Source of the DNA: Dyella acidisoli
GTDB taxonomy: Bacteria; Pseudomonadota; Gammaproteobacteria; Xanthomonadales; Rhodanobacteraceae
Assembly (NCBI RefSeq): GCF_030160295.1
Contig: NZ_BSOB01000046.1
Coordinates: forward strand, 440,673-504,672
Direction: 5' to 3'
DNA: 64,000 nucleotides
Shown: one piece after another, positions 4,103 through 61,988 of the stretch
Numbering within the stretch: the stretch's first letter is position 1
How the letters are laid out: each line of letters begins with the position of its first letter
The notes under the pieces: generated by a model
Told to the model about the DNA's origin: nothing
Database searches by the model: none
Seen by the model: the letters and a program-made list of their open reading frames with translations, nothing else
Made by a program: the position numbers and the translations under genes

Positions 4103-4915
4103 TCACGGCAATCCCGCTTCGCGCAGGCGCGCGGGCCAATCGATGCCGGCATCGCCCACGGCGAGGAATTCTGGATTGATCAACGATTCCCCGCGGTTGT
4201 AATGCAGCGGTTTGCCGGAGAGATCGAGCACTGCACCACCGGCTTCTTCCAGCACGCATTGTGCAGCGGCGGTATCCCATTCGCTGGTCGGGCCACGGCG
4301 CAAGTACACATCCGCTGAGCCACGGGCAATCAGGCAAAACTTCAGCGAGGAGCCAAGCGCATGCAGTTGGTAATCCTCACCCAGCAGACGGCGCAGCGTC
4401 GCTTCCGACGAACCACCATGCGAGCGGCTGCCCGCGGCAACCGGTGGATTGGCCAGCGTGCGCGTGGAAATACGTTCCCACTCGGCATCGCGTTGCACTT
4501 GCCACCATGCGCCATGTCCGCGCGCGGCGACAAACAGTTCTCCCGTGACCGGTGCCAGCACCACGCCCAGCACGGGATCGCCGTTCTCGATCAAAGCGAT
4601 GTTGACAGTGAATTCACCGTTGCGCTTGACGAATTCGCGCGTGCCGTCGAGGGGATCGACCAGCCAGTACCGCGACCATTCGCGACGTTGTTCCCACGGC
4701 AACTGGCTCGCTTCTTCCGAAACTACCGGCAACACGGGATCAAGCTGCGCCAAGCCGGAAGCGATGACTTTTTGCGCGGCCAGGTCAGCTGCCGTGAGCG
4801 GCGACCGATCGCTTTTCATCTCGACGTCGAAATCTTCGCGATAGACGACCATGATGGCGTCGCCGGCAAGTCGCGCCAGCGTGCCGACTTCGAGCAGCAG
4901 AGGATGATCGGGCAT
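4103..4915 (-). CDS. cysQ: 3'(2'),5'-bisphosphate nucleotidase CysQ
   Basis: A 270-residue member of the magnesium-dependent, lithium-sensitive phosphatase superfamily. Metal ligands are visible in SEEAS (66-70), DPLDGT (87-92) and SEWDTAAAQ (Asp214), and the segment DGTREFVKRNGEF is characteristic of CysQ. It converts 3'-phosphoadenosine 5'-phosphate, the by-product of sulfate reduction and sulfotransfer, to AMP. The start at 4915 was chosen because the family begins directly before the first helix; the frame extends further upstream but without homology. The nudE stop lies 8 bases upstream, so the two are probably co-transcribed. Confidence 0.93.
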   Translation of the reverse strand: MPDHPLLLEVGTLARLAGDAIMVVYREDFDVEMKSDRSPLTAADLAAQKVIASGLAQLDPVLPVVSEEASQLPWEQRREWSRYWLVDPLDGTREFVKRNGEFTVNIALIENGDPVLGVVLAPVTGELFVAARGHGAWWQVQRDAEWERISTRTLANPPVAAGSRSHGGSSEATLRRLLGEDYQLHALGSSLKFCLIARGSADVYLRRGPTSEWDTAAAQCVLEEAGGAVLDLSGKPLHYNRGESLINPEFLAVGDAGIDWPARLREAGLP

Positions 4916-4923
4916 GATGCTCA

Positions 4924-5481
4924 CTAGATGTGCAAACGTCCGGCAAGGTATTCGCGCGCAAGGAACAGCGCGGCGATGGAGCGGCCTTCGGTGACATCGT
5001 CCCGTGAGACCAGGGTGTGCAATTCGGCGAGTTTCCACGGCACGACTTCAAGCGGCTCGGGTTCGTCGCCCTGCAGTCGTTCGGGGTAAAGATCTTGTGC
5101 CAGCACCACGTGCGCCATGTGCGTCATGTACGACGGCGACAACGAGAGGTTGTGCAGGATCTTGAGCTTGCGCGCGCCGTAGCCGACTTCTTCCTTCAGC
5201 TCGCGATCCGCGCCCTGCTCCACCGTTTCGTCCTGGTCGAGCCGACCTTTGGGCAGGCCCAGTTCGTAACGGTCCACGCCGACGCCGTATTCGCGGACCA
5301 GCAGCACGGTTTCATCGTCCAGCATGGGCACGATGATGACCGCGCCCAGGCCCCGCCCTTTGAGCCGCTCATAGGTACGGTGCTGGCCGTTGGAGAATTC
5401 CAGATCCACCTGCTCCACATGCAGGAAGCTGCTGGTGGTGGTGTCGCGCGTGGCGTGGATGACGGGGTAGCGAGGCGGCAT
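4924..5481 (-). CDS. nudE: ADP compounds hydrolase NudE (Nudix family)
   Basis: A 185-residue Nudix hydrolase. The Nudix box runs from Gly79 to Gly100 with the catalytic REXXEE core at RELKEE (93-98). The N-terminal part (HVEQVDLEFSNG) and the segment VREYGVGVDRYELGLPKG match NudE, which hydrolyses ADP-ribose, AP3A and NADH-type dinucleotides. The ATG at 5481 was chosen since the frame upstream runs into a palindromic repeat at 5509-5555. It heads the run nudE-cysQ-mazG on the minus strand. Confidence 0.9.
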   Translation of the reverse strand: MPPRYPVIHATRDTTTSSFLHVEQVDLEFSNGQHRTYERLKGRGLGAVIIVPMLDDETVLLVREYGVGVDRYELGLPKGRLDQDETVEQGADRELKEEVGYGARKLKILHNLSLSPSYMTHMAHVVLAQDLYPERLQGDEPEPLEVVPWKLAELHTLVSRDDVTEGRSIAALFLAREYLAGRLHI

Positions 5482-5508
5482 GGGAAGGGATTGTAACTGG
5501 CTTTTGCT

Positions 5509-5555
5509 CCCTCTCCCCGCCGGGGGAGAGGGCTGGGGTGAGGGGCAACCTTGCG
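5509..5555. repeat. Single family-1 palindromic repeat
   Basis: One hairpin unit with GGGGTGAGGGG tail and a CAACCTTGCG end, lying between the hisN-like stop and the nudE start. It is the only isolated, undiverged copy in the window. Its spelling shows the consensus unit: hairpin, tail, CAAYCTTGCG. Confidence 0.8.
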
Positions 5556-5575
5556 CAATGTCTTGGGCAGCTCGG

Positions 5576-9188: not shown

Positions 9189-9923
9189 ATGCGCACCATC
9201 CGCATCCACGTCGACCAGCCGCTGACGCCTGCCGCCACACTGAGCTTGCCTGTGCAAGCCGCGGAGCACGTGGCGCGCGTGCTGCGCATGAATGCGGGGG
9301 ACGCACTAACCGTTTTCAACGGCGATGGCTACGACTACGTAACCACGATCGTGAGCGTCGGCAAGCGCGATGTAGTCGTCCACATCGACGGCTGCGAAGA
9401 AGTTGCGAATGAATCACCGCTGCAACTTACGTTGGCGCAAGGTGTTGCGCGTGGCGAGAAGATGGATCTGATCGTGCAGAAAGCCACTGAACTGGGTGTT
9501 GCGCGCATCGTGCCCTTGTTTACCGAACGCTCCGAAGTAAAGCTCGATCCCGCCCGCGCGGAAAAACGCCTACAGCATTGGCGCGCGGTGGCTGCCAGTG
9601 CGTGCGAGCAAAGCGGTCGCGTACGCCTCCCCGAAGTGATGCCTGCGCAACCACTGCAAACCTGGCTGGAAGGTCTTGCCAATGATGGCGCCCAGCGTCT
9701 GGCGTTGCTGCCCGAGGGTACTCAGCGAGCGCGTGAAGTGCGCTTCAGCGAGTCAGGTGGCTTGCTGGTGGTGGGACCCGAAGGCGGCTTAGGCGAGCGC
9801 GATGTTGCGGCACTGCGCGAAGCTGGCTTTCGAGGGCTGCAACTAGGGCCGCGCATTTTGCGCACAGAAACTGCGGGATTGGCCGCGCTGGCTGCGTTGC
9901 AAGCGTTGCACGGGGATTTGTAG
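9189..9923 (+). CDS. rsmE: 16S rRNA (uracil(1498)-N(3))-methyltransferase RsmE
   Basis: A 244-residue SPOUT methyltransferase. The N-terminal PUA-like part (VLRMNAGDALTVFNGDG) is followed by the knotted SAM-binding domain: KATELGVARIVPLFTERS, VVGPEGGLGERDV (about 193-205) and LGPRILRTETA near the C-terminus. It methylates U1498 in the decoding centre of 16S rRNA. Its TAG stop codon (9921-9923) is also the first triplet of a palindromic repeat, yet the protein has normal length. It lies near bioA on the same strand with a minus-strand gene in between. Confidence 0.95.
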   Translation: MRTIRIHVDQPLTPAATLSLPVQAAEHVARVLRMNAGDALTVFNGDGYDYVTTIVSVGKRDVVVHIDGCEEVANESPLQLTLAQGVARGEKMDLIVQKATELGVARIVPLFTERSEVKLDPARAEKRLQHWRAVAASACEQSGRVRLPEVMPAQPLQTWLEGLANDGAQRLALLPEGTQRAREVRFSESGGLLVVGPEGGLGERDVAALREAGFRGLQLGPRILRTETAGLAALAALQALHGDL

Positions 9924-9994
9924 GTTGGGTTAGCCCAGCGTAACCCAACAACAATGGCCTGAAATTGTTGGGTTACGTTGCGCTAACCCAACCT
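9921..9994. repeat. Inverted doublet of family-4 repeat (TAGGTTGGGTTA)
   Basis: Arm one, 9921-9951, reads TAGGTTGGGTTAGCCCAGCG and continues with GTAACCCAACAA overlapping. Arm two, 9965-9994, is its inverted copy. The arms are about 30 bases with only one or two mismatches and a 13-base loop. Each arm is itself a GTTGGGTTA/TAACCCAAC palindrome. It lies between convergent rsmE and chpC and would form a strong hairpin in either transcript. Confidence 0.9.
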
Positions 9995-28509: not shown

Positions 28510-28550
28510 GGCAAATCCATGCTCTCCAATACGTTCCATCATTACCTCGC

Positions 28551-28570
28551 CGTCATTCCCGCGAAAGCGG
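28551..28570. repeat. Family-2 REP (CATTCCCGCGAAAGCGG), truncated
   Basis: CGTCATTCCCGCGAAAGCGG ends at the left border of the IS element; the usual GAATCC continuation is missing. A second, 5'-shortened copy starts at 29671, at the right border. Confidence 0.8.
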
Positions 28571-28614
28571 AAAGTTTGCAAAACTAAGCATTGCTCCAAC
28601 GAAGGGCCATAGTG

Positions 28615-29670: not shown

Positions 29671-29746
29671 CGTCCCGCGAAAGCGGGAATCCACTTTGCT
29701 CTGGTGCGAAAAGGCAAATTGAATTCCCGCTTTCGCGGGAATGACG
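29671..29746. repeat. Inverted doublet of family-2 REP
   Basis: CGTCCCGCGAAAGCGGGAAT (29671-29690) and, inverted, ATTCCCGCTTTCGCGGGAAT (29723-29742), about 35 bases apart. The spacer includes TTTGCTCT, found at the same place in the other doublets of this family. It separates the IS from the pilU 3' end. Confidence 0.85.
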
Positions 29747-29806
29747 ACATCAACATCATGTTATAGCTTGGCTCCTTCCCCTGACGGGAAAGTGAGTTGA
29801 GCTACA

Positions 29807-42192: not shown

Positions 42193-42260
42193 AACCTTTC
42201 CCTCTCTTTTCCAAGAAAGGGGTGAGGCAACACGCCAACCTCACGAGAAAAATCGTCGTA

Positions 42261-42360
42261 CCCTCACGGCCGTCATTCCCGCGAAAGCGGGGATCCATCT
42301 TGCTCTCAAGCAAAAGCCAAAATGGATTCCCGCTTTCGCGGGAATGACGGCCGTGAGGGT
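42261..42360. repeat. Inverted doublet of family-2 REP with 38-bp arms
   Basis: Arms 42261-42298 and 42323-42360 are almost perfect inverted copies; they include CCCTCACGGCCGTCATTCCC and the GCGAAAGCGGG core. The spacer holds CTTGCTCTCAAGCAAAAG. It lies between convergent hemE and the hydrolase gene. A diverged family-1-like hairpin (42191-42227) precedes it. Confidence 0.88.
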
Positions 42361-49698: not shown

Positions 49699-49808
49699 GT
49701 CCGTCATTCCCGCGAAAGTGGAGGCGCTTTTCAACAGCGAAGCTGGTCAATCCAATTTCAAGTATGCATCAGAGCAAGATGGATTCCCGCTTTCGCGGGA
49801 ATGACGGC
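49699..49808. repeat. Inverted doublet of family-2 REP
   Basis: Copies at 49699-49722 (GTCATTCCCGCGAAAGTGG, slightly diverged) and 49779-49808 (inverted, ATGGATTCCCGCTTTCGCGG). The inner end carries AGAGCAAGAT, the inverse of the ATCTTGCTCT found beside other family-2 copies. It lies upstream of tyrA and downstream of the lipoprotein gene. Confidence 0.85.
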
Positions 49809-49904
49809 CATAAGGGAATGGTGATTTTCATAGCAACCTACCCGGCCGCAAGCTTTCCCGGATAGCAGTAGCGAAGGTCTGAATGACGAGCGACTAGCTC
49901 GAAC

Positions 49905-57793: not shown

Positions 57794-57821
57794 GATGCGC
57801 GTCAGGTAGGCATAGCCTGCG

Positions 57822-57896
57822 TAGGTTGGGTTAGCGCAGCGTAACCCAACAATACCGCCCCGAACATGTTGGGTTACGCTGCACTAACCCAATCTA
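57822..57896. repeat. Inverted doublet of family-4 repeat
   Basis: Arms 57822-57852 (TAGGTTGGGTTAGCGCAGCG and on) and 57867-57896 (inverted). The outer end of the second arm supplies the hrpA stop codon (TAG on the minus strand, 57896-57894). It fills the space between hrpA and the relA start. Confidence 0.9.
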
Positions 57897-60800
57897 CGAT
57901 TGGCGGAGGGTTTCGAGTGACTTCGCCAGGCGTTTGGGCGACACCGGCTCGGCCGTCTTCAATTCTTGCGCGAACAGCGATACCCGCCATTCCTCGATCA
58001 ACCAGCGCAGTTCATCCAAACCGTCGCTACCACCCGCGCGATGGTTGAGGTACTCGCGCCAATACGGCAGCACCTGCAGCATGCGCTGCTGATCCTTGGC
58101 CGGATCCTGTCGCAAGCGCTCGGCACGCAAGCGCATGGCTTTCAGGTAGCGCGGGAAGTGCGCAAGTCGCGTAGTCGATAGCTCGCGCAAAAAGCCGGAT
58201 GCCAGCAACGCATCGAGCTGCTCACGCAGGTCGTCGTAGCTCGCGCGCGCAAAACCGATCAACGGTGGCTGCAGCCAGGGTTTCAGGTCGGCCTGCGCCT
58301 CAATGATTGGCTCGGCGAGCTTCAATCGCTCCACCGCCGCAGCGAACAACTCACGTGCCGCATGCGTACGCAACACTTCGAATGACGCGGCACTGCGTAC
58401 GTTGAGATTCTGCGTTTCCAGCAAATCGGTAAAACCGCCTTCCACCAGGTCTTCGCGCAAGCTATCCACACTGCCCAGCGATGCGTACTTCAAGGACATG
58501 GGATTGGAAATCGGCAGACGCCGACGCGCTTGCTTGACCTCGCTGTCAAGCGAGTTGCGCAGCAGACGTTCCACACCTTCGACGTGTGCTGCCTTCGCTT
58601 CGTCACGCCGTTCAAATACGCGAAAGGCCACTGCTTCGCCGAGATCGACCAGCGCGGGAAACGCCATCAATCCGCCTTCGGAGCGCACCTGCTCGGGGAT
58701 TTCCTCAAAATCCCAGCTGGTCACGTCTTCGCGCGTGAGTTCGATATCGGTCTTGCGCGAAAACGCTTCACGCGCCTGCCCTTCCCATTGCGCACGCAAT
58801 GCGGCGAGATCGCGACCGGTAGCGAGCGTGCGTCCGCTCTCATCGTGCAGGCGGAAGCGCATCGCAAAGTGCGGCGCAAGTTCCACGGGTGCGAATTCGC
58901 TCGCTTCGATCTCCACGCCGGTCGTGCGCCGCAGGAATGCAGCAAGCACTTTCGCCAACATCTCATCGCGCGGCGCTTCCGCTTCGACGAAGGCCCGCGC
59001 GAAGTCCGGCGCGGGTACGAAGTTGCGGCGCAAGGCCTTGGGCAATCCACGGATCAGCTCCGCCACCTTGTCACCCAGCAAACCAGGCACCAGCCACTCG
59101 CAGCGTGCGGCTGGCAGCGCATTGAGCATCGCCAACGGCAAATGCAAGGTGACACCGTCGGCCTCGTCGCCGGGCACGAAACGGTATTCCAAACGATAGC
59201 GTTGCGGCGGAATATCGAGCGAAGCGGGAAACGCCTTCGGGTCCAATCCGGCACCGCCCACCATCACGTCATCGATCGACCAGCGCAATGCTGCCTGTTC
59301 GGTAGGGCGCGCGTTGCGATACCACGCGTCCAAAGCGCGGCTGCTGGCGATGTCTTCAGGCAATTTTCTGCGAAAGAAATCCACCAGTTCGTCTTCATGG
59401 CGGATCAACCCTTCGCGGCGCTGGCGTGCTTCGATGCCGCGTGCGTCTTCCAGCACGCGCTGGTTCGCGCGTATGAAATCCGCACGCGCTTCGATGTCGC
59501 CGCGTGCAAGCGCTTCGCGCAGAAAGATATCGTGCGCAAGGGCTGGGTCCTGCTTCTGGAAAGTCACAGGGCGGCGTTCAACCAGCACCAGTCCGAACAG
59601 ACTGATTTGCTCGTACGCCACCACGGTACCGCGCTTGCGCGACCAATGCGCGTCGCGGCAGGCGCTACGCAGCAGATGCGCGGCTTGCTGTTCGATCCAC
59701 AATGGTTCGATACGCGCACACATCATGCCCCACACGCGGCCACCGATATCCAGGATTTGCGCGGCGAAGATCCAGTTCGACGGGGTCTTGGCCAGCGCAG
59801 AGCCGGGGAAGACTTGGAAGCGGCGTTCGCGGGTGCTGCGGTAGACGCCCTTCTCGTCTTTATTGCCCACCTGCGTGGGAAGACCGGCTAGCAAACTGCG
59901 GTGGATGGATTCGTAGCGATGTTCGCTCTCGCTGCCGCCTTCGCTCCCTCTCCCCTCCGGGGAGAGGGTTGGGGTGAGGGGTTGGGGCTTGCCGGAAGAC
60001 GCATCCCCGCGAGTTTTTTGAGAAGACCTTGCACGCACGTTTGCCGTATCACGCGAGATTGCCCCCTCACCCCGGCCCTCTCCCCGAAGGGGAGAGGGAG
60101 AAGTGGTTGCAGCATCCAGCTTCCACCCGAGCTCCTGCGTCACCAGCAACAACTGCCGATGCAGCTCGCGCCACTCGCGCATCCGCAAGAAGCTCAAAAA
60201 GTGCCGCGTACACCAATCGCGCAATTTCGACTGCGTCAGTTCCTCATGCACGTGGTCGTACTCACGCCAGAGATTCAACACACCGACGAAATCCGACTTG
60301 GGATCGGCAAACGCTGCATGCGCCGCATCCGCCTGCTGGCGCGCATCAGCCGGACGCTCGCGCGGGTCCTGGATGCTGAGAAAGGCCACGACCACCAGCA
60401 GCTCGCGCAGACTGCCCAGCTTCTGCGCTTCCACCAACATGCGCGCGAGTTGCACGTCGATGGGTAAACGCGCAAGCGTGCGGCCAATGGGGGTGAGCTG
60501 ACGCTTGTCGTCGATCGCGCTGATTTCGGCGAGGCGCCGATAGCCATCGGCCACCACACGCGGATCGGGCGATTCAAGGAACGGGAATTCGTCAACCTCG
60601 CCCAACTGCAACGACAACATGCGCAGGATCACATTGGCGAGCGACGAACGCAGCAGTTCCGGATCCGTGAAAGCCACACGCGAGGCGTAGTCGGCTTCGT
60701 CGTACAAGCGATAGCAGATGCCGGGCCCGACACGACCGCAGCGCCCTTTGCGCTGATCCGCGGCGGCCTGCGAGACCGGCTCCACGTGCAGACGTTCGAG

Positions 60801-61976
60801 CTGGCTGCGCTGGCTGTAGCGCTTAACGCGTGCGGTACCGGTATCGATCACATAGCGGATGCGCGGCACGGTGAGCGAGGTTTCCGCCACGTTGGTGGCA
60901 AGCACCACGCGTCGCTTTGGACCGGGTTTGAACACGCGATCCTGATCGGTGGCGGAAAGACGCGCGTACAACGGCAGGATTTCTGTCTCGCGATATTGGC
61001 GGCGCGACAGCATCAAGTGTGCATCGCGGATCTCGCGTTCGCCGGGCATGAAGACCAGCACGTCGCCCTGTGGATCGTCGTGTGTGATTTCGTCCAGCAC
61101 GGCGGCCACGTGTTCGGCACTGCCCTGCTGTAGCTCGCTGTTGCGCTGGTTGCGGCGCGCAGCCACTTCGTCCACCGAGCGCCAACGCAACTCCACCGGA
61201 TAGGCACGGCCTTCGACCGAGACAACCGGCGCGTTGCCGAAGTGTTCGGCGAAGCGCGCAGTGTCGATGGTGGCCGAGGTGACGATGATCTTCAGCTCGG
61301 ACCGCTTCACCGCGAGCCGTTTCAAATAGCCCAGCAGGAAATCGATGTTGAGGCTGCGTTCGTGGGCTTCGTCGATGATCAGCGTGTCGTAGGCGGACAG
61401 CCAGGGATCGTTCTGCGTCTCGGCTAGCAAGATGCCGTCGGTCATGAACTTGATCAGGCTCTGCTCGGACACCTGGTCGGTAAAGCGCACCTGAAAACCG
61501 ACCTTGTCGCCGACTTGGGTGCCCAACTCTTCCGCCACGCGACGCGCTACCGAGCGGGCGGCCAGGCGCCGCGGCTGCGTGCAGCCGATCACACCGGCTT
61601 CGCCGCGCCCTGCCGCCAGGCACAGTTTGGGTAGCTGTGTGGTTTTGCCCGAACCGGTTTCGCCCGCGATCACCACGACTTGATGCTCGCGAATCAGCTT
61701 CACGATCTCATCGGCACGCGCGGTGATCGGTAGCGATTCGTCCAGGCGAATCTCCGGTTTGCTTTGCGCGCGCTTCTTCCTCCGCTCGGCAGAAGCGGCA
61801 ATATCGGTGGCCAGCGCTTCCAGCTTGTTCGCATCCGGATGGCGGGACAGGCCGCGCCAACGGCCCAGCAGGCGGCCGAAATCGCGGCTTGAAACCGTGT
61901 CCAGCGATTTGCGCAGCGCGCGCAAGCGGGTTTCCGGAGAAGCAGTGGAAGGGGTATCGGGTTTGGGATCACTCAT
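57894..61976 (-). CDS. hrpA: ATP-dependent RNA helicase HrpA
   Basis: A 1360-residue DEAH-box helicase. Walker A GETGSGKT is at 105-112 and DEAH at 202-205; VATNVAETSLTVP, QRKGRCGRVGPG and the ratchet/OB regions follow, then a long C-terminal domain of HrpA type. About 57 residues near 624-680 (TTSPSPLRGEGRGEG to PLTPTLSPEGRGSEGG) are translated from an inverted doublet of family-1 palindromic repeats inserted in frame between ELGWKLD and YESIHRSLLAGL, which are adjacent in relatives. HrpA acts on mRNA and ribosomes. Its TAG stop lies in a family-4 repeat. Start 61988 is an alternative. Confidence 0.93.
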   Translation of the reverse strand: MSDPKPDTPSTASPETRLRALRKSLDTVSSRDFGRLLGRWRGLSRHPDANKLEALATDIAASAERRKKRAQSKPEIRLDESLPITARADEIVKLIREHQVVVIAGETGSGKTTQLPKLCLAAGRGEAGVIGCTQPRRLAARSVARRVAEELGTQVGDKVGFQVRFTDQVSEQSLIKFMTDGILLAETQNDPWLSAYDTLIIDEAHERSLNIDFLLGYLKRLAVKRSELKIIVTSATIDTARFAEHFGNAPVVSVEGRAYPVELRWRSVDEVAARRNQRNSELQQGSAEHVAAVLDEITHDDPQGDVLVFMPGEREIRDAHLMLSRRQYRETEILPLYARLSATDQDRVFKPGPKRRVVLATNVAETSLTVPRIRYVIDTGTARVKRYSQRSQLERLHVEPVSQAAADQRKGRCGRVGPGICYRLYDEADYASRVAFTDPELLRSSLANVILRMLSLQLGEVDEFPFLESPDPRVVADGYRRLAEISAIDDKRQLTPIGRTLARLPIDVQLARMLVEAQKLGSLRELLVVVAFLSIQDPRERPADARQQADAAHAAFADPKSDFVGVLNLWREYDHVHEELTQSKLRDWCTRHFLSFLRMREWRELHRQLLLVTQELGWKLDAATTSPSPLRGEGRGEGAISRDTANVRARSSQKTRGDASSGKPQPLTPTLSPEGRGSEGGSESEHRYESIHRSLLAGLPTQVGNKDEKGVYRSTRERRFQVFPGSALAKTPSNWIFAAQILDIGGRVWGMMCARIEPLWIEQQAAHLLRSACRDAHWSRKRGTVVAYEQISLFGLVLVERRPVTFQKQDPALAHDIFLREALARGDIEARADFIRANQRVLEDARGIEARQRREGLIRHEDELVDFFRRKLPEDIASSRALDAWYRNARPTEQAALRWSIDDVMVGGAGLDPKAFPASLDIPPQRYRLEYRFVPGDEADGVTLHLPLAMLNALPAARCEWLVPGLLGDKVAELIRGLPKALRRNFVPAPDFARAFVEAEAPRDEMLAKVLAAFLRRTTGVEIEASEFAPVELAPHFAMRFRLHDESGRTLATGRDLAALRAQWEGQAREAFSRKTDIELTREDVTSWDFEEIPEQVRSEGGLMAFPALVDLGEAVAFRVFERRDEAKAAHVEGVERLLRNSLDSEVKQARRRLPISNPMSLKYASLGSVDSLREDLVEGGFTDLLETQNLNVRSAASFEVLRTHAARELFAAAVERLKLAEPIIEAQADLKPWLQPPLIGFARASYDDLREQLDALLASGFLRELSTTRLAHFPRYLKAMRLRAERLRQDPAKDQQRMLQVLPYWREYLNHRAGGSDGLDELRWLIEEWRVSLFAQELKTAEPVSPKRLAKSLETLRQS
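59946..60098. repeat. Family-1 repeat doublet inside hrpA
   Basis: Copies at 59946-59981 and 60051-60098 in inverted orientation, tails inwards, as in the intergenic doublets at 286-398 and 1090-1222. The reading frame of hrpA runs through without a stop or frame change. Confidence 0.9.
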
Positions 61977-61988
61977 GCAGTCGCACAT

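Follow-up and report, generated by a model that had tools for sequence, protein, structure and literature searches.

REPs and REP dimers are known to occur in frame inside genes; according to the accessible part of PMC3733652, many of these genes serve DNA synthesis or repair, and RNA helicases of O. terrae are among them. The same part of that study describes different REPs at about the same site of recB in X. campestris and X. oryzae, proposes that insertion into flexible linkers does no harm, and refers to the Rickettsia RPE as in-frame, protein-coding palindromic inserts in many genes. REPs inside genes are therefore already described, and what distinguishes the locus analyzed here, the RNA helicase gene hrpA of Dyella acidisoli and its relatives, is that one linker is used by several repeat families.

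The window, i.e., the whole stretch of DNA that was analyzed, comprises 64,000 nucleotides of contig NZ_BSOB01000046.1. In the following, G and L numbers denote genomes and loci, respectively, G000 is the window's own genome, and F1, F2, F3, F5, and F6 are repeat families. The genus Dyella was assigned via named relatives, and the closest named HrpA was that of D. nitratireducens (89% identical; records of the own genome may be omitted). The features referred to below are the following.

57894 to 61988, minus strand: hrpA, ATP-dependent RNA helicase (DEAH box) of 1364 amino acids, open ORF, TIGR01967
59931 to 60113, no strand assigned: in-frame inverted pair (doublet) of F1 units, HrpA residues 626 to 686, from inverted-repeat detection and RNA folding
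59946 to 59968, no strand assigned: palindrome core of one unit with a 10-bp stem and a 3-nt loop, CCCTCTCCCC(TCC)GGGGAGAGGG, from the sequence
60076 to 60098, no strand assigned: palindrome core of the other unit with a 10-bp stem and a 3-nt loop, CCCTCTCCCC(GAA)GGGGAGAGGG, from the sequence
59982 to 60062, no strand assigned: inter-arm stretch, which aligns across hrpA genes of Dyella and not with the spacers of intergenic doublets, from alignments
288 to 400, no strand assigned: F1 doublet outside a good coding frame, the best spanning frame having a negative coding score
1088 to 1224, no strand assigned: F1 doublet outside a coding frame, with no spanning ORF of 60 amino acids for the unit at 1187
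5508 to 5557, no strand assigned: single F1 copy with a negative coding score

The TIGR01967 profile of HrpA matched the ORF with 1474.2 bits (cutoff, 722.75) in two stretches, the best of which covers residues 28 to 632. The Pfam domains DEAD, Helicase_C, HA2, OB_NTP_bind (residues 695 to 770), and DUF3418 (785 to 1359) were identified, and the doublet separates the HA2 part from the OB fold. The original prediction of an in-frame palindromic doublet within hrpA proved to be real: the two arms (59931 to 59981 and 60063 to 60113) have 51 nt each and are 82% complementary, and the reading frame is open over its entire length. The coding-strand RNA at the doublet is predicted to form one long hairpin (z = -11.3), and none of 200 shuffled sequences was as stable. 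For annotators, it is noted that peptides such as PSPLRGEGRGEG and PLTPTLSPEGRG are repeat derived.

The F1 unit pattern, allowing up to 2 mismatches, had 193 matches in G000 (96 + 97), compared to none for the reversed control; because of these counts and the z value of the RNA fold, the in-gene pair is not due to chance. The F1 census in this genome was compiled from the matches listed, the window, and four regions (L279 to L282) that were picked because the insert sequence had matched there, and it comprised 88 groups. Among the matches listed, 28 of the 88 groups contained two or more units, 29 had no spanning frame of 60 amino acids, and 46 scored below -0.1; the location mostly outside genes was judged by this simple codon score rather than by annotation. 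In 12 aligned doublets the units were inverted and shared about 50 bp, with variable spacers that could not be aligned. F1 is consequently REP-like in being a short, high-copy-number palindrome that forms inverted doublets and is mostly extragenic, and inspection of the aligned units revealed neither a GTAG nor a CGTC tag at their ends. The proposal that the doublet in hrpA is the same as those at 286 to 398 and 1090 to 1222 holds in that both places contain inverted pairs of the same family outside good coding frames; what they have in common with hrpA is limited to the units of about 50 bp.

Four matches to Y1_Tnp were found in G000, and the loci of about 3.3 kb around them contained no F1, so that a mobilization of F1 by a RAYT has no support among these four loci; the carrier transposase may reside in another genome. 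Of the four Y1 matches, two have an F5-like inverted end at their flanks and one has the GTAGGTTGGGTTAGCG repeat there. The F5-type inverted ends of 24 nt (AAACCGGGGTCAGG...) are found at 1147 to 1170 and 1951 to 1974 of L223 and at 1351 to 1374 and 2162 to 2185 of L225, and the F5 pairs in hrpA of other genera may have derived from such Y1-flanking elements. The window contains two copies of a second palindromic repeat, GTAGGTTGGGTTAGCGCAGCGTAACCCAAC (9920 to 9994 and 57821 to 57895, the latter directly behind hrpA). On the same contig, this repeat also provides the inverted ends that enclose a Y1-type transposase match (L226, 1342 to 1373 and 2013 to 2044), likely a RAYT with its own GTAG-type REP. 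Another repeat family of the window consists of TTCCCGC...GCGGGAA palindromes (28549 to 28573, 29673 to 29756, 42249 to 42360, and 49737 to 49828). A phage search returned 2 Campylobacter phage records with 22% coverage.

We compared the insert with its homologues. The solved HrpA structure 9gft, which we take to be that of Escherichia coli, aligned up to residue 624 and resumed at residue 690, with 4 residues in between compared to 65 in the window, so that the insert is larger than the approximately 57 residues initially estimated. Among 131 distinct linker rows of the order, 9 have short linkers; none of these is from the genus Dyella, two are from the same bacterial family (G258 and G164), and the others are from other families. 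Another 49 of the 131 rows lack a recognized unit. This set excludes loci with N or with unrecognized anchors, such as L151, L182, L183, L211, L215, and L216; inverted repeats are present in the excluded loci L183 and L216. The insert is hence an in-frame addition to a conserved protein that is missing from distant homologues, as in RPE. The existence of short linkers and of linkers without a recognized unit also led us to reject the idea that a hairpin is required in every HrpA.

Within the genus the picture is different. The nearest relatives have similarly long inserts at this position of HrpA, and F1 units are present in the hrpA linker of 11 of the 16 Dyella genomes (L031 to L040 and L046), as a single unit in L036 and L039; two of the remaining genomes have F3-type tracts and three have no recognized unit. 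The statement that the flanking segments are contiguous in relatives is accordingly correct for 9gft and the 9 short linkers but not for the nearest relatives, and the expectation that most related strains would lack the segment turned out to be the opposite of what was found. Apparently unrelated linkers of the same length, which had been named as an observation that would speak against an insertion, do exist in some relatives (for instance, G139 and L109); several such linkers nevertheless hold other inverted repeats, and the linker middle of G009, G013, and G015 resembles, by eye, the F1 spacer. Much of the genus shares the site and has a spacer that can be aligned, which rules out a recent strain-specific insertion. 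Nor is there support for a single ancestral F1 insertion from which the entire bacterial family would have inherited it, since the right-hand subtype and the distance between units differ: many Rhodanobacter rows have a different right-hand F1 subtype, which is present elsewhere in those genomes and in G000, and the unit distance is 112 nt in many Rhodanobacter rows versus mostly 130 nt in Dyella (exceptions are L094, L121, L130, L111, and L084). Two individual loci deviate in other ways. L046 (G008, D. mobilis) shows an in-frame expansion of the left arm into several PSPLRGE copies, giving a linker of 120 amino acids with five F1 matches, which suggests slippage or repeated insertion. In L182 (G046) the frame behind the linker is apparently shifted and the open frame has only 771 amino acids, reflecting either an error or a real break.

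Several lines of data concern the persistence of the pair. The spacers can be aligned within Dyella even though 55 to 62% of their residues differ between species and their lengths vary, which speaks for descent with the gene. Synonymous difference was lower in the arms than in the flanks, namely, 0.225 versus 0.416 in 13 Dyella genomes (the 16 genomes minus L043, L044, and L045) and 0.10 versus 0.41 in the 8 genomes with both arms, a set selected for intact arms; in either set, none of 301 flank windows of 25 codons was as low as the arms. Among sets hand-picked from the labeled rows, 12 other Dyella rows gave 0.185 for the arms and 0.364 for the flanks, and the contrast was weaker in 14 Rhodanobacter F1 rows (arms, 0.192; flank, 0.289; spacer, 0.336); 12 Rhodanobacter F2 rows gave 0.133, 0.136, and 0.229 for arms, spacer, and flank, respectively. 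Several Dyella genomes have decayed arms. Arm mismatch dropped as the genome-wide F1 count rose (rho = -0.79, P = 3e-4, n = 16 Dyella genomes, uncorrected for relatedness), with the exceptions of G007, which has 23 copies and perfect arms, and G012, which has 27 copies and no F1 arm.

A left-arm variant is common to five Dyella loci (L069, L070, L071, L100, and L104). In this arm, 4 of 200 compared bases differ in the stems versus 21 of 30 in the loops, with a difference of 39% at synonymous sites of the flank. Since the five do not form one clade in the 130-row tree described below, more than one insertion is possible, and the pattern is a weaker sign of selection. With at most 1 mismatch, the variant matched hrpA alone, as judged by position and sequence, in G264 and G267, 2 sites in G266, 3 in G263, and 47 in G265; exchange with genomic copies as the sole keeper of the arms is weakened by the first two genomes, with the count in G265 pointing the other way. 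Paired double changes exceeded column shuffles in both cores, with 7 versus a mean of 2.6 in the left core (8 of 2000 shuffles as high) and 12 versus 5.6 in the right core (1 of 2000), and total pairing was hardly above shuffles in the left core (81 of 2000 as high) and clearer in the right one (4 of 2000); related rows inflate all of these counts.

At least five repeat families occupy the HrpA linker in related genera of two bacterial families, mostly as inverted pairs. Their distribution is as follows.

F1: Dyella, Rhodanobacter, Frateuria, and Fulvimonas
F2 (CCTCCCCTGCNNGCAGGGG): part of Rhodanobacter and two Dyella
F3 (GGGGAAC or GGGATTC tracts): D. tabacisoli, D. silvatica, G003, G012, G243, and one MAG
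F5 (CCGGGGTCAGAGTC): G028, G179, and G169 from another family within the order
F6 (GTGGGAGCGGCCCCTGTCCGCGA and a related sequence): genus g8, in four rows

In the examples tested, these families are also abundant in the respective carrier's own genome. F2 had 89, 79, and 109 strand matches in G183, G129, and G254, respectively, and 121 in G000, which nevertheless has F1 in its hrpA; as F2 is palindromic, most of its sites are counted twice in these numbers. F3 had 624 overlapping matches in D. tabacisoli G262 compared to 9 in G000, F5 had 29 in G028 and 34 in G169, and F6 had 272 in G245 and 179 in G088, F5 and F6 both being without a match in G000. With the patterns used, some carriers had few or no matches in their own genome, namely, G003 (3) as well as G012 and G243 (none) for F3, G179 (2) and G184 (none) for F5, G247 (2) for F6, and G178 (7) for F2; their linker copies may be variants or decayed. 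False matches in 2620 codon-shuffled linkers amounted to 29 for F5, 4 for F6, and none for F1 to F3. The family label requires 28 changes on the 130-row tree (minimum, 5; shuffled mean, 59.7), for which the weak F5 row L196 was set to none and two mixed rows were given a single label. This tree is short, comprising 229 columns, and if its starred branches are considered by themselves, no more than 3 changes are forced for F1 and 2 for each of F2, F3, and F5. What stands out is that one linker is repeatedly used by different families, since insertion into loops and linkers is general.

To compare the linker with the rest of HrpA, 69 hrpA ORFs with distinct linkers and a length of 1300 amino acids or more were scanned for five families; 14 loci that were partial, broken, or without an anchor were skipped. 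A linker unit was present in 57 of them, and 113 units lay inside the linker versus 15 elsewhere. The latter include 12 F6-type matches, one F1 unit near the C terminus of L038, a lone F5, and a lone F6. The 12 F6-type matches are distributed as two each in L083, L087, L097, L099, L114, and L127. In the four loci inspected (L083, L087, L114, and L127), two GTAGGAGCGCACCCTGTGCGCGA-like units form an inverted, in-frame pair at one place flanked by the motifs GRAYPVE and QQGSA, a second insertion site that is thus used in some Rhodanobacter; in L087, counted from the first nucleotide of the GRAYPVE motif, the units begin after 45 and 98 nt. HrpA therefore has at least two places that accept such pairs, of which the linker is the main one. 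The idea that units occur only in the linker had come from a scan restricted to F1 to F3, which placed 116 of 117 units there, with one gene piece (L047) counted twice, and was rejected upon the five-family recount.

F1 is also found in frame in other recognizable genes of G000, namely, those of an Lhr-like helicase, an ABC-F ATPase, and a dihydrolipoyl dehydrogenase among the matches listed for the 88 groups. The ABC-F ATPase gene contains a doublet, and in the dihydrolipoyl dehydrogenase gene a single site lies in the linker that joins the lipoyl part to the catalytic part. The Lhr-like ATP-dependent helicase gene has three separate apparent in-frame sites (L016 and L018; contig C4 of G000 at about 233275, 234418, and 236689), one of them scoring just below 0 on one side; the name Lhr is our assumption, as the library name is ATP-dependent helicase with a score under its cutoff. 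Less clear cases are F1 copies near gene starts or ends at L015, L241, and L281. Outside hrpA, F1 was present within about 3 kb in 7 of 72 named loci, of which only L085, L111, and L135 share a place. An eighth locus, L124, is a broken hrpA with a gap in the linker region at about 4900 to 5060, and a stretch beside this gap resembles sequencing-adapter sequence. In a different class, an F1-like doublet lies in frame, in another reading frame, in rbbA of plasmid pAB510d of Azospirillum sp. B510 (L283), between the ATPase and the membrane part as read from the sequence.

The reading that we favor, with a probability of about 0.7, is that of a permissive interdomain linker that has been repeatedly colonized by active repeats. 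F1 would be a genome-wide REP-like repeat, the doublet of which in the hrpA linker is most likely translated, giving a predicted linker of about 60 residues, and in Dyella the pair would have been inherited with hrpA for a long time. The linker would tolerate inserts of very different lengths, the survivors being the in-frame, stop-free cases, and the same tolerance would open it to colonization by other inverted-repeat families in other lineages. Where a family is common genome-wide the arms would tend to stay palindromic, and where it is rare they would be decayed or absent; the insert peptide itself would be neutral. Tolerance accounts for the number of families, the unconstrained length, the decay seen in F1-poor genomes, the second site, and the insertions in other genes. 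It explains the conservation of the arms in Dyella less well, for which genome-wide upkeep or selection on the hairpin must be added.

Selection on the hairpin can also be considered as an explanation of the entire pattern: a stem-loop in the hrpA message, or in the DNA, would slow ribosomes, time the folding of the core before the OB fold, or set the level of hrpA, and families would be swapped while the hairpin is kept. We regard this as unlikely. The arms of Dyella are conserved at synonymous sites, the stems are kept while the loops vary in five of them, paired double changes in both cores exceed shuffles, and the linker holds mostly inverted pairs from at least five families with an RNA fold z of -11.3, all of which it would explain. 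However, kinship inflates the pair counts, the left core barely surpasses shuffles in total pairing, and the five variant Dyella, not being one clade, may stem from separate insertions. In addition, the 131 linkers include 9 short ones and 49 without a recognized unit, several Dyella arms are decayed, the contrast between arms and flanks is weaker in Rhodanobacter, and pairs occur both at the second place of HrpA and within further G000 genes. As HrpA acts on stalled ribosomes, a hairpin on its own message could permit self-sensing; that the hrpA message profits in this manner, with slowed ribosomes enabling the helicase to sense and set its own level, is a quite improbable extension. If true, unrelated mobile repeats would have been recruited repeatedly as interchangeable RNA parts of one regulatory element.

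Equally improbable is selection at the protein level, in which the peptide, rich in Pro, Gly, Arg, and Glu, serves as a charged, flexible linker and greater linker length is favored. The commonness of long linkers even in the rows without recognized repeats is consistent with this, but the extent of residue and length differences among Dyella spacers, the unrelated appearance of the peptides of different families, and the short-linker homologues in the order argue against it. That the linker DNA is a preferred transposition target rather than a merely tolerant place is very doubtful. It would agree with the 113 of 128 units of HrpA ORFs that lie within the linker and with the F5-like ends that border Y1-transposase genes of G000; a common target is unlikely for families whose ends differ, though, a second HrpA site exists, and there is no F1 at the four Y1 loci of this genome. 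Furthermore, insertions into folded parts would be lost, so that survivorship alone can yield the linker pattern. An assembly artifact or a broken gene is given almost no credence. Assemblies do break at the hrpA hairpin, with runs of N inside the linker in L151 and L124; on the other hand, the copy in the window is gap free and in frame, and it is matched in many assemblies, among them the complete genome of D. jiangningensis (CP007444) and the single-contig G002, which disposes of the assembly error that had been considered at the outset.

The locus offers a natural replicate experiment, in which one linker of a conserved gene has been occupied by at least five unrelated families in related lineages. 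Together with the second-site pair, it allows insertion, persistence, decay, and replacement of coding palindromes to be traced on one tree, and the question of whether in-gene REPs are tolerated junk or used hairpins becomes testable. Among the known systems, the original prediction had pointed to the Rickettsia RPE, and rightly so, since both are in-frame, protein-coding palindromic inserts in conserved genes; the RPE differ from F1 in sequence and host. The accompanying view that no described case was known for this repeat family overstated the novelty, considering the in-gene REPs and dimers covered in the available sections of PMC3733652. Our search of the open-access literature found no report of REPs in hrpA or of F1 in Dyella or Rhodanobacter, which does not imply their absence from print. 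RAYT-associated REP doublets, or BIMEs, as presented in the accessible part of PMC2817692, resemble F1 in forming high-copy-number inverted doublets with conserved units and variable spacers, and the GTAGGAGCGCACCCTGTGCGCGA pair of the second site resembles a Xanthomonas REP given there (start, GTAGGAGCGCACC; end, GGGCGCGAC). Unlike the RAYT-linked REPs in that part of the source, F1 has, by inspection, no GT(A/G)G head, and no F1-flanked Y1 match was found in G000. Another comparable system is that of the intragenic REPs of the GTAG and CGTC superfamilies in the accessible part of PMC3733652, which are likewise palindromic units, often dimers, that lie in frame in known genes. F1 differs from these in that its ends carry, by inspection, neither GTAG nor CGTC, and the hrpA locus differs in that one linker is occupied by at least five families across two bacterial families, with alignable spacers and conserved arms within a genus.
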